Shown piece after piece: positions 16,686 to 60,443 of a DNA stretch of 64,000 nt. The stretch's first letter is position 1. Every line of letters begins with the position of its first letter. The position numbers and the translations under genes are program-made. A model generated the notes under the pieces. That model was given only the letters and a program-made list of their open reading frames with translations. It was not told where the DNA came from and did not search any database. The DNA comes from Natronorubrum halophilum (GTDB lineage: Archaea; Halobacteriota; Halobacteria; Halobacteriales; Natrialbaceae), in contig NZ_QQTY01000003.1 in the NCBI RefSeq assembly GCF_003670115.1, positions 496,001-560,000 of the forward strand. The letters run 5' to 3'.

Positions 16686-17113
16686 TCAGTTCTGAGCCGT
16701 GCCGGTCGTTCGTCGAAGTTGATCCCAACTCGTATACCCTCTCACGAGCAGGTAGGCGACGACGAGGGCGATCGTGAGTGCGCGTCGACGGCGACCGTCA
16801 CCGTCGCTCCCGCTGCGTCGCTCGCGAAGATGGCGAGGTAGAGCGCAGTCGCGGCTTTGTGAAAGATTACCAGCTCCCAGACGCCGGGATACTGGTGCGG
16901 TCGATACGCGAGCAACACGAAGAGCCCGGCGAAAACCAGAAACCCGAACATCTGCCAGGTAGCAGCGACGGCGGCGTCCGCCCTGGTCGATTGGATGGAT
17001 GCTGCGGCGGCCGCGAACGAGAGTACCGCGCCGAGTGCGGTAAGTACTAACAGCCCGGACGCCACACGCCGTTTCCACCTCGGAACGCCATTGAACGTAT
17101 CGGTCTGTGACAT
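16686..17113 (-). pseudogene. Four-helix membrane protein with a C-terminal frameshift
   Basis: From the ATG at 17113 (MSQTDTFNGVPRWKRR) the frame gives three clear hydrophobic segments, but after VTVAVDA it turns into a low-quality tail that stops at 16742. In another frame the continuation reads LTIALVVAYLLVRGYTSWDQL and stops at 16686, supplying the fourth helix. A two-base insertion, or one-base loss, near 16775 explains both. No family is recognised. Confidence 0.6.
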
Positions 17114-17296
17114 CTTTCTCGAGAGGAAGGACACCGAGCCAGCCGATATAGCTATGTTCGATGAACACGGCTCGGGAGAAAGTCCGGTTCGCCGTCGCCT
17201 CGTTCGCGTCCAACTCGGCTGCGAACCGAGGAAGCAAGCACCAGTAACGTGTACCGGGGCTCTGAACGCGCGCCGTCTATCGGAGAGGGCCCCGAC

Positions 17297-17561
17297 TACA
17301 ATAGGTACAACGTTTGAAATAGGTAGGATAGGTGCAATAAGTACAATCGATTGGAGAGGATTCGCCGAAGTAGGCGATCAAATAGATGAAGTAGCCAAAG
17401 TAAACGCGTTAGGGGAAATAGTTGGAGAAGGTACAATAGGTGGTATGGCTCGAATAGGACGAATAACTGTAACAGGTAGCTCAGGCACAATAGGTAGAAT
17501 AGCTATACGCGACGTTTCAGACGGGGCAGTTGTGATAGGTTCTGTGGGGTGGGTAGGACCA
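17297..17561. repeat. Loose, partly phased ATAGG repeats upstream of the main array
   Basis: At least eight copies of the ATAGG/ATAGGT word and related ATAG words occur here, several at multiples of 9 bp, in DNA clearly richer in A+T than the flanks. They appear to be degenerated units of the array that follows. Confidence 0.65.
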
Positions 17562-17669
17562 ATAGATGGTATAGCTAAAATAGATGCTATAGGTGTAATA
17601 GATGGAATAGGTGAGATGGGTGCAATAGGTGCGATAGGTGAAATAGGTGCGATAGGTGCAATAGGCGCC
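17562..17669 (+). repeat. Array of twelve contiguous 9-bp units beside parA (candidate partition site)
   Basis: Twelve 9-bp units run without interruption from 17562 to 17669, consensus ATAGGTGNA with ATAG the most constant part. The last ones read ATAGGTGCG, ATAGGTGAA, ATAGGTGCG, ATAGGTGCA and ATAGGCGCC. A 9-bp period places successive units on slowly rotating faces of the helix, so a protein could polymerise along it. The array ends about 175 bp upstream of the ParA start. Directly repeated iterons beside a ParA gene are the usual form of plasmid centromeres or replication iterons. The role here is inference. Confidence 0.8.
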
Positions 17670-17697
17670 TCATCCACCACACCTGGCCCACGCTACT

Positions 17698-17812
17698 TAC
17701 CTATTGTACCTACTCGACCTATTACAGCTCCAGTAGGTAGAACTAAGACGATAGAATAAGATGTAGTCTTTGACAGCTGAAATAGAAGATATCGGAACAA
17801 TAGGTGCCTATC
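17698..17812 (-). repeat. Inverted ATAGGT units between the array and parA
   Basis: ACCTATTGT, ACCTACTCG and ACCTATTAC (starting about 17699, 17708 and 17717) are the same 9-bp unit in the opposite orientation, still 9 bp apart. One forward copy, AATAGGTGCC, follows at about 17799. The arrangement gives the locus a partial two-fold symmetry next to the parA promoter. Confidence 0.6.
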
Positions 17813-17843
17813 GTACCTTGCCCGGATCGGGTGAAGCTCACCA

Positions 17844-18734
17844 ATGGAAGCCACAACAACCGAACCACGTGCCGTTAGCGTGGTCATCTTGAAAGGCGGT
17901 GTCGGTAAATCAACAACCTCGATGAATCTCGCGCGCCAGCTCGCCGAGCGCGGTGAGACCCTCTACGCCGACCTCGACCCGAACGGTCACGCGACGAACG
18001 GGCTCGGTTTCGAAGCGGCGTACCAGGGCGACATCAATCTCGGGGACGTCATCCTCGAGGGCGACGCAACGCCCCACGATCTCATTCGGACGACCGAGCA
18101 CGGATTCGATCTGCTTCCGTCGTCGGATACGCTCGAGGACGTCGAAAAAGATCTCGCCGGCGCGATGCAGGGGTCGGCGCGGATCAAAACGAAAATCGTC
18201 GATCCGCTGCTCGGAACCGAATACGAGTACCTGGTTTTCGATTGCCCGGCGTACCCGGGGATGCTCAACAACAACGCCCTCGTCGCGACGGGGAACGTTA
18301 TCATCCCGATCGAACCGGGATCGAGCGCGATCGGCGGCTACAAGCGAACGATGGAACGACTGATCGAACCGGCGCGGGAGTACATCGACGTCGACGTCCT
18401 CGCGGTCGTTCCGAACAAACTCGCCGACCGAATCGATCAACAGACGGAGGATCGGGAACTGCTCGAGAACCTGAACACGGCGACCTACGAGGTAAACCCC
18501 GGCCAACCGCTGCAGGAAGCGGTTCCGGACTTCGCTCGGATTACGGCCGCCGAGTTCGATGCGATCGATGCCGGTGACACGTCGCCACCGAAACCGGGGA
18601 TCCGGCACCGGTCTGCGCTATCGCGGTCGCTGCAGCACAATCAACCGTTACAGGACTACGACCCCGAAAACGACCAGATCCCCTACTACGAGGAACTCGC
18701 CGAGATCGTCGCAACTGAGGGTGGGAAACGATGA
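17844..18734 (+). CDS. ParA/MinD-type partition ATPase
   Basis: A 296-residue deviant-Walker ATPase. KGGVGKST is at residues 17-24 (the signature lysine is K17). The switch I region YADLDPNGHATNGLGF and the Walker B region YLVFDCPAYPGM follow, with VVPNKLADRIDQQ near residue 190. It has no N-terminal HTH, so it resembles small type Ib or archaeal plasmid ParA proteins, which segregate DNA by cycling on the nucleoid. The next gene overlaps its stop by four bases and probably encodes the partner. The 9-bp repeat array just upstream is the candidate cognate site. Confidence 0.93.
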   Translation: MEATTTEPRAVSVVILKGGVGKSTTSMNLARQLAERGETLYADLDPNGHATNGLGFEAAYQGDINLGDVILEGDATPHDLIRTTEHGFDLLPSSDTLEDVEKDLAGAMQGSARIKTKIVDPLLGTEYEYLVFDCPAYPGMLNNNALVATGNVIIPIEPGSSAIGGYKRTMERLIEPAREYIDVDVLAVVPNKLADRIDQQTEDRELLENLNTATYEVNPGQPLQEAVPDFARITAAEFDAIDAGDTSPPKPGIRHRSALSRSLQHNQPLQDYDPENDQIPYYEELAEIVATEGGKR

Positions 18735-19180
18735 GCAATCCGTTCGACGATCTCAAAGAGGACGACGCGGATTCGACCGAATCGGCGGATGCGCTCGAGA
18801 GCGAGCCAGAGACGGATTCGGACCAGGCTCCCGACGAGCCGTCGATAACGGATGCAGAGACGAGCGATGAATCGGCCACGGAACAGCCGGAACATCGTGA
18901 CGAATCCGACGAGAAAACCGACGAGCCACTGTCGGCCGCAGAAGCGGGTCCGGCGTTCGAATACAGCCAGGTTCAACAGAAGCCGTTCTACGCTCGGACC
19001 GAGACGGTAAACGAATTCGAGAACAAGATCCGGACGACGATCGTTCCAACGCTCGCCGAAGCGGAGATACTCGACGAGGAAACCCGCGAGATTCACGATG
19101 CGGTCCTCCGTCTCGCAAGCGAACAGCCCGAACGAATCGCCGAACTCATACTCGAGGAACGGCGAGAATCGGGACGGTAG
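18731..19180 (+). CDS. Putative ParA partner protein (acidic, disordered N-terminus)
   Basis: 149 residues. The first 70 are a very acidic, Ser/Asp/Glu-rich low-complexity tail. From about residue 78 comes a helical domain (FEYSQVQQKPFYARTETVNEF, IRTTIVPTLAEAEILDEETREIHDAVLRLA). It starts four bases inside the parA stop (ATGA), so it is translationally coupled. In ParA systems this position usually holds the DNA-binding adaptor (ParB/ParR-like). No HTH or ribbon-helix-helix is obvious, so the DNA-binding role is inference. Small archaeal proteins of this shape are often found after ParA. Confidence 0.75.
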   Translation: MSNPFDDLKEDDADSTESADALESEPETDSDQAPDEPSITDAETSDESATEQPEHRDESDEKTDEPLSAAEAGPAFEYSQVQQKPFYARTETVNEFENKIRTTIVPTLAEAEILDEETREIHDAVLRLASEQPERIAELILEERRESGR

Positions 19181-59736: not shown

Positions 59737-59792
59737 CCGCTCGCCGTCAACCCCGTTCCGCCGTCGCTGGCGTGTTCGAGCCCGTTTTGCCG

Positions 59793-60443
59793 TCACTGGT
59801 GTTCTCGAGCGAGCGTCGCCCGAATCAGTTGTTCGGTGCCGCGACGGATTCGACCGCCGGCGGCGGTAGGCGAGATATCGAGCCGGGCGGCGAGGTCCTC
59901 GAGCGATATCTCGCGCGGCTCCTCGAAGTATCCCTCCTCGTACGCCGCCATGATCGCGTCGTACTGTTCGTCGGTGAGTTCCGCGGCGACGCCCCTCGTC
60001 CACTCGTCCTGTCGAAACATGCGATGAAGCTCGAACGCGTATCCTTCCCGCTCGCAGTACGCACAGAGGTCGGCCAGCGCGTTCCGATCCGGCAAGTGAA
60101 GCCGGACGTCCCACCCGCGGCTGTTGCTCACGCACTCGAGGAGAATGCCGTTGAGTTCGATCGTCTTGGTCGAAATCAGCTTCGTCCGCTCGGTGTGGCG
60201 CAGTTGATAGATCCGATTCGAACCGGACTCGTCGACGAGCGTCCACCACGCGACCGTGTGGTCCTGCTCGAGCGCCCGATCGAACGTTTCGTCGACGCCG
60301 CTGACGACGAAAAAGAACCGCCCCGTCTCAGGGTCCGTCGTCGAATGGCTCACGACTTCGATTCGTGCGTCCGGATACTCGCGAATCGTCGGCGCCAACG
60401 CGAGATCCGGATGATCGATACTGATATCCGAAATGAGGCTCAC
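59793..60443 (-). CDS. HTH-10 (Bat-type) transcriptional regulator
   Basis: 216 residues: an N-terminal sensor-like domain and a C-terminal HTH-10 (LTDEQYDAIMAAYEEGYFEEP, REISLEDLAARLDISPTAAGGRIRRGTEQLI). Haloarchaeal proteins of this type, e.g. relatives of Bat, activate nearby catabolic operons. It is convergent with the Rieske operon and the probable regulator of the betaine genes. Confidence 0.9.
   Translation of the reverse strand: MSLISDISIDHPDLALAPTIREYPDARIEVVSHSTTDPETGRFFFVVSGVDETFDRALEQDHTVAWWTLVDESGSNRIYQLRHTERTKLISTKTIELNGILLECVSNSRGWDVRLHLPDRNALADLCAYCEREGYAFELHRMFRQDEWTRGVAAELTDEQYDAIMAAYEEGYFEEPREISLEDLAARLDISPTAAGGRIRRGTEQLIRATLAREHQ

Follow-up and report, generated by a model that had tools for sequence, protein, structure and literature searches.

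A 9-bp repeat array upstream of parA as the probable plasmid centromere of a haloarchaeal partition system

We propose that the 9-bp repeat array upstream of parA in Natronorubrum halophilum is the parS centromere of a three-part ParABS plasmid partition system organised like bacterial type Ib, and that the array, together with a nearby palindrome, also acts as the operator of the operon. We hold this reading to be very likely, with protein binding, fold, and partition itself inferred. The array lies in a 64,000-nucleotide stretch of DNA (hereafter the window) that corresponds to positions 496001-560000 of the 708-kb contig C3, in a host genome of 4.67 Mb and eight contigs. The register of the array, the class-wide linkage of such arrays to one operon, the divergence of their repeat words, the covariation of word and partner protein, and the palindrome were all observed directly. 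That the site serves in gripping and sharing out large plasmids is very probable because the same layout, with different words, adjoins the same gene pair across the class Halobacteria.

The array and the adjoining operon

The features of the locus, in window coordinates, are:
17301-17669, forward strand: main array of 41 slots of 9 bp, 32 of them RTAGS-like, densest in the twelve at 17562-17669
17697-17723, reverse strand: three inverted units TTACCTATT, GTACCTACT, and CGACCTATT, sharing the register of the main array
17733-17759, forward strand: final in-register forward units GTAGGTAGA and ATAGAATAA (17733, 17751), overlapping the promoter region
17739-17747, forward strand: conserved AGAAYTAAG element, at the same position in relatives, inferred to be a candidate TATA-type promoter of parA
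17798-17813, no strand assigned: palindrome CAATAGGTGCCTATCG with the array word as half-site, candidate autoregulation operator
17844-18734, forward strand: parA, encoding a ParA/MinD-type ATPase with a deviant Walker A motif (LKGGVGKST; Pfam AAA_31 1e-27, CbiA 8e-12)
18731-19180, forward strand: partner gene (149 aa), overlapping parA by 4 bp; its product is proposed to bind the centromere (no binding data)
18974-18997, forward strand: codons for partner residues 82-89 (QQKPFYAR), a proposed DNA-reading strand, as the word varies together with these residues but not with the remainder of the domain

A single 9-bp register spans 17301 to ~17759 (~450 bp, about 50 slots). Between 17301 and 17669, RTAGS was matched at four or more of its five positions in 32 of the 41 slots in phase 0, the counts in the remaining eight phases being 0, 0, 1, 4, 1, 3, 1, and 0. 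Autocorrelation at 9, 18, and 27 bp in the 700 bp upstream of parA was far above that of dinucleotide shuffles (z = 31), and periods 7, 8, 10, and 11 gave z from -2.1 to 0.7 in the same region. The first-pass annotation had described a perfect run of twelve 9-bp units at 17562-17669; its coordinates are correct and the phase is strict throughout, but the sequence is not perfect, since eleven units start with ATAG and the seventh (17616) with ATGG, the other positions vary, and TRF returned 9.7 copies with a 75% match. Also present are the looser forward copies that it reported before the run, extending from 17301, and the inverted copies behind the run, with CCTAY at 17700, 17709, and 17718; the point missed was that both share the register of the run. 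A 29-bp tandem repeat at window 59752-59810 (two copies, TRF score 76) is unrelated to the array.

Arrays scattered through the genome with no link to parA had been named as the observation that would refute a partition role. This was tested in the host genome and not met, the array being single: a search of the whole 4.67 Mb for four in-phase RTAG words gave no second occurrence. An exact genome search for ATAGGTGNA pairs proved too strict a criterion.

The array had been placed upstream of a ParA ATPase gene and a coupled partner gene, and both are there as annotated. Judged by its sequence, the parA product is a Walker-type partition ATPase; it has 296 aa, more than typical small ParA proteins, its Walker A motif begins at residue 16, and it has no N-terminal helix-turn-helix. 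The partner carries an NPFDDL motif at its N terminus, followed by an acidic disordered tail and a helical C-terminal domain. An F-x-x-L at the partner N terminus was seen by eye in nearly all relatives, and in most of them the junction between parA and partner is -1, -4, or -8. Searches of Pfam, NCBIfam, PHROGs, and PDB sequences gave the partner no family match, and hits to Lin-8 and similar entries were rejected as low-complexity only. In the AF2 model the partner core consists of an extended stretch and then helices at 19-39, 47-60, and 62-77 (pLDDT 88.5), a predicted order of elements compatible with ribbon-helix-helix proteins; a monomer model cannot show a two-chain ribbon. Foldseek searches with two AF2 partner models returned no PDB match at E ≤ 0.001 and no meaningful viral match. 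No conserved arginine finger was seen in 77 N-terminal tails, 20 of which lack Arg altogether, the conserved features of these tails being their acidity and the N-terminal F-x-x-L motif.

The palindrome also recurs, ATAGGnnCCTAT lying within 110 bp of parA in 33 of 91 loci. At locus L088, which has the array word TACGAATC, the palindrome is CGATTCGTACGAATCT, the locus's own word. Probably one protein reads both array and palindrome, because the palindrome half-site equals the local word, L088 included. Between promoter and palindrome (window 17770-17786), TTGACAGCTGAAATAGA resembles a conserved, GTCCGCTGAAACAGAC-like element that many relatives carry at this position.

Distribution of the arrays in Halobacteria

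Among the 391 genomes of Halobacteria sampled, 190 encode the partner family. In a wider sample of 393 genomes across the phylum it was present in 38, every one in the order of the window, and none of the sampled genomes outside that order had it. Upstream of parA in 32 close ParA relatives, RTAGS/SCTAY words are spaced by multiples of 9. Same-strand word pairs in these relatives and the window numbered 119, 130, 77, 68, 52, and 52 at 9, 18, 27, 36, 45, and 54 bp, respectively, and 0-20 at other spacings; next to no such excess was found within their genes. These counts pool related plasmids.

The first-pass annotation had suggested a search of other haloarchaeal replicons for 9-bp arrays next to ParA homologues, and the search bore the link out. 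Periodicity at 9 bp upstream of parA exceeded z = 4 in 84 of 95 loci (median 9.6), and it persists down to ~35% ParA identity. Inside parA the median was 1.1, with two loci above 4; the other control regions passed this value in 10 of 76 cases downstream of the partner and in 4 of 66 at 1.4-2.1 kb upstream. Sixty divergent loci had been picked by the partner protein alone, blind to the array, and the set of 95 includes a few near-duplicates (L015/L068, L011/L076, L010/L078, and L020/L072). The 11 loci with z < 4 include a partial match (L033) and a ParA without the partner family (L128). High values were obtained for pNRC100 of Halobacterium salinarum NRC-1 (z = 32) and pSVX82-3 of Haloferax lucentense (z = 15.7). 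Downstream period-9 signals at L007, L009, L069, and L082 were rejected as arrays, as their words are G+C-rich or simple repeats unlike the local word, and were read as coding periodicity. At least one downstream array is genuine, that of L089: this locus has no array next to parA on the upstream side, but one immediately behind the partner gene (TTATTCTACCTATTCTACC...) and a second ~1.9 kb upstream of parA.

No 9-bp array was found in the ParA systems without the partner family that served as controls, namely that on contig C6 of the host genome (L128) and those of the haloviruses ChaoS9, phiH1, and PhiCh1. The C6 locus (91641-92255) encodes a ParA of a different kind (EAGGVGKT Walker motif) and an unrelated partner, and three orc1/cdc6 genes lie nearby, at 74-83 kb. 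In the three viruses (L145, L146, and L147, respectively) the ParA gene overlaps a short partner gene behind it, of a different sequence type, whose product (e.g., NVNMYLPEDLVEEL) looks ribbon-helix-helix-like by eye.

Nine of the 60 sampled loci lie on contigs longer than 2 Mb, and some copies may be integrated or may serve a chromosome, the cargo then not being a plasmid. In genus g29 the partner occurs on first-numbered, mostly multi-megabase contigs (G035:C1:1302577, G067:C1:1304165, G319:C1:1619916, and G246:C1:1074321). It may be a resident chromosomal copy there, given the multi-megabase contigs and the nearly equal coordinate in two genomes.

Geometry, word divergence, and competing readings

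Inverted words begin at 3 mod 9 from forward words in 366 pairs, compared with 61 pairs in the next-best phase, which is the phase of the operator palindrome. Each slot may be a pseudo-symmetric 8-bp site, ATAG|CTAT, plus a spacer base, on which a dimer could sit either way round; forward RTAGS and inverted SCTAY would then share one register because they are the two halves of one such site. The omega protein binds its heptads as a dimer in either orientation (PMC5016525).

The period is conserved and the word changes between subfamilies, the subfamily words being TAGG/CCTA, CTAAG, ATAGA, AATAGC, TACGAATC, ATAAT/AATGT, and ACAGT. The unit seen in the window is not peculiar to its plasmid: many plasmids of Natrialbaceae have a TAGG-type unit, and what stays constant is the spacing of 9 bp. 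The host genome itself holds a second ParA/partner pair (L127/L143, contig C7 52794-54072, 43% ParA identity). This pair has a 9-bp array too, whose word is of another kind (TACA/ACAC type, z = 8.7), and the two systems form a natural compatibility pair.

Across 76 loci, word distance was correlated with distance in partner residues 82-89 after ParA and rest-of-domain distances were removed (partial r = 0.31, reached in none of 1000 permutations), the value for the rest of the partner domain being -0.07. The top three single columns of the whole domain were Q83, A88, and P85. This covariation strongly suggests that word and partner are matched; it is not proof, because permutation leaves shared ancestry incompletely removed. 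The partition site, one of two options offered in the first-pass annotation, is thus well supported on comparative grounds, by class-wide operon linkage, by a conserved period with diverging words, and by the covariation of word and partner residues.

The other option, replication iterons, has been weakened and now seems improbable. In that reading an initiator binds the array, which serves as the origin of the replicon, and the array's link to parA comes from the clustering of replication and partition genes. Iterons are indeed tandem repeats, and on pHTUR02 of Haloterrigena turkmenica (L149) a divergent orc1/cdc6 gene lies ~1.6 kb upstream of parA. However, the array tracks the ParA partner family and not Orc1, its word covaries with the partner, and the closest Orc1 gene on the contig of the window is ~280 kb off (230 kb, with the array at 513 kb). 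On pHTUR02, origin and partition site may be neighbours.

Marginally less probable still is that the array is an extended operator and nothing more, the partner being a repressor and the array tuning transcription of parA and partner. The array does end where the promoter region lies, and the palindrome between promoter and start codon shares its half-site; yet ~50 slots over 450 bp, reaching far upstream of the promoter, are more than repression needs, and at L089 an array is downstream of the operon. The latter position favours a centromere, because a cis site may lie there and an operator hardly can. Bacterial type Ib partners combine centromere binding with repression (PMC5016525), and since one protein serves both roles there, we interpret the operator role as probably a part of the answer and not an alternative to it.

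That the array encodes an Ile-Gly-x protein, or is a neutral satellite born of slippage, is refuted in the main: a 254-aa open frame does cross it (16995-17759), but units inverted in register, words that turn over while the period stays constant, and the linkage to one operon throughout the class fit neither coding nor slippage. The earlier warning that this frame could be mistaken for a collagen-like gene was apt, and we rejected the frame as a protein. It showed no conserved coding, its array part matching only other arrays (32-41% identity, three loci, with the low-complexity filter off only).

Relation to described systems, proposed mechanism, and significance

The centromere reading places the locus closest to bacterial type Ib systems, whose layout it shares: a site upstream, an ATPase, and a small DNA-binding partner (PMC5016525, PMC9499535). 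The locus meets the type Ib criteria of a deviant Walker A ParA without an N-terminal helix-turn-helix and of a small partner downstream in the operon; that of short direct or inverted repeats upstream of the operon is met in sequence layout only. The partner has no ParB domain match, and the site is a tandem array and not a palindromic parS, so the criterion for type Ia or chromosomal ParB-CTPase systems is not met.

Small ParA systems with tandem-repeat centromeres are an established type in bacteria. The delta/omega system of pSM19035, with its parS heptads, has a ParA-type ATPase, a small partner with a disordered N-terminal tail, and contiguous short repeats in both orientations that overlap promoters, one dimer binding each repeat as we propose for the haloarchaeon (PMC9499535, PMC5016525). 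It differs in being bacterial, in its 7-bp repeat with 7-10 copies per site, and in its partner, which has been shown to be a ribbon-helix-helix protein and has no detectable sequence similarity to the haloarchaeal one. In TP228 (ParF/ParG/parH), a centromere upstream of the operon is likewise combined with a separate operator beside the genes, but AT-rich spacers part its repeats and the ParG tail has an arginine finger (PMC5016525). ParB/parS of pCXC100 (Leifsonia) is also of type Ib, with tandem direct repeats upstream of parA (cited in PMC5016525). It differs in having direct repeats only, in being bacterial, and in its partner of known ribbon-helix-helix type. The repeat unit of this parS is reportedly also 9 bp.

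The described archaeal systems are SegAB and AspA-ParBA, and both differ from the haloarchaeal array system. In SegAB, too, the gene of a ParA-like ATPase overlaps that of a small DNA-binding partner, but SegB sites are palindromic, many, and scattered over the chromosome, with no 9-bp array (PMC5120986, PMC12284271); this pattern does not apply here, as the window array is single in the genome and the partner has no PDB sequence match to solved DNA-binding proteins. AspA-ParB-ParA of the Sulfolobus plasmid pNOB8 is archaeal too, and its site binder spreads as a left-handed helix on DNA, but it comprises three proteins, one 23-bp palindrome, and a winged helix-turn-helix binder (PMC5120986).

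Protein binding, a ribbon-helix-helix-like fold, filament formation, ParA activation, repression, incompatibility, and partition function remain inferences. We envisage that each 9-bp slot would hold one partner dimer and that dimers packed at this interval would join into a continuous filament, left-handed around the DNA (one dimer per 9 bp, with 10.5 bp per helical turn, gives ~-51 degrees per step and about seven dimers per turn). Acidic N-terminal tails with F-x-x-L would project from this filament and engage nucleoid-bound ParA-ATP, and the contact of tail and ParA may pull sister plasmids apart. This picture is drawn by analogy from pSM19035, in which at least four contiguous repeats are needed for ParA activation (PMC9499535). 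The activating contact must differ from that of bacterial type Ib, because the tail has no conserved arginine finger; the N-terminal F-x-x-L motif is a candidate. Word and reading strand would diverge together, so that co-resident replicons could avoid cross-reaction.

Haloarchaea carry several megaplasmids alongside a polyploid chromosome. How haloarchaeal replicons segregate, and what archaeal centromeres look like, are open questions according to a review (PMC5120986). Term searches of two later texts, a review on the archaeal cell cycle from 2024 and an overview on Haloferax volcanii from 2025, gave no mention of a haloarchaeal centromere. A possible role of long tandem repeats of Haloferax in the partitioning of replicons was raised in a 1995 paper (cited in PMC3404096). 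We found no description of a haloarchaeal centromere in the literature examined; early work on pNRC100 and pHH1 was outside its scope, and a prior account is not excluded. The 1995 repeats are said to be CRISPR repeats.

On balance, we favour the view that the arrays belong to an undescribed class-wide haloarchaeal partition system with a constant 9-bp register that a new family of centromere-binding proteins reads; residues 83, 85, and 88 of these proteins would set word and compatibility, so that the replicons of one cell could be sorted into partition groups from sequence. The array words would then give a means of predicting plasmid compatibility, and the family offers a natural experiment in which a DNA-binding protein and its site co-evolve with the spacing fixed. 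With a site recognisable by its 9-bp period, and present on the model plasmid pNRC100, the question of haloarchaeal segregation becomes directly testable.
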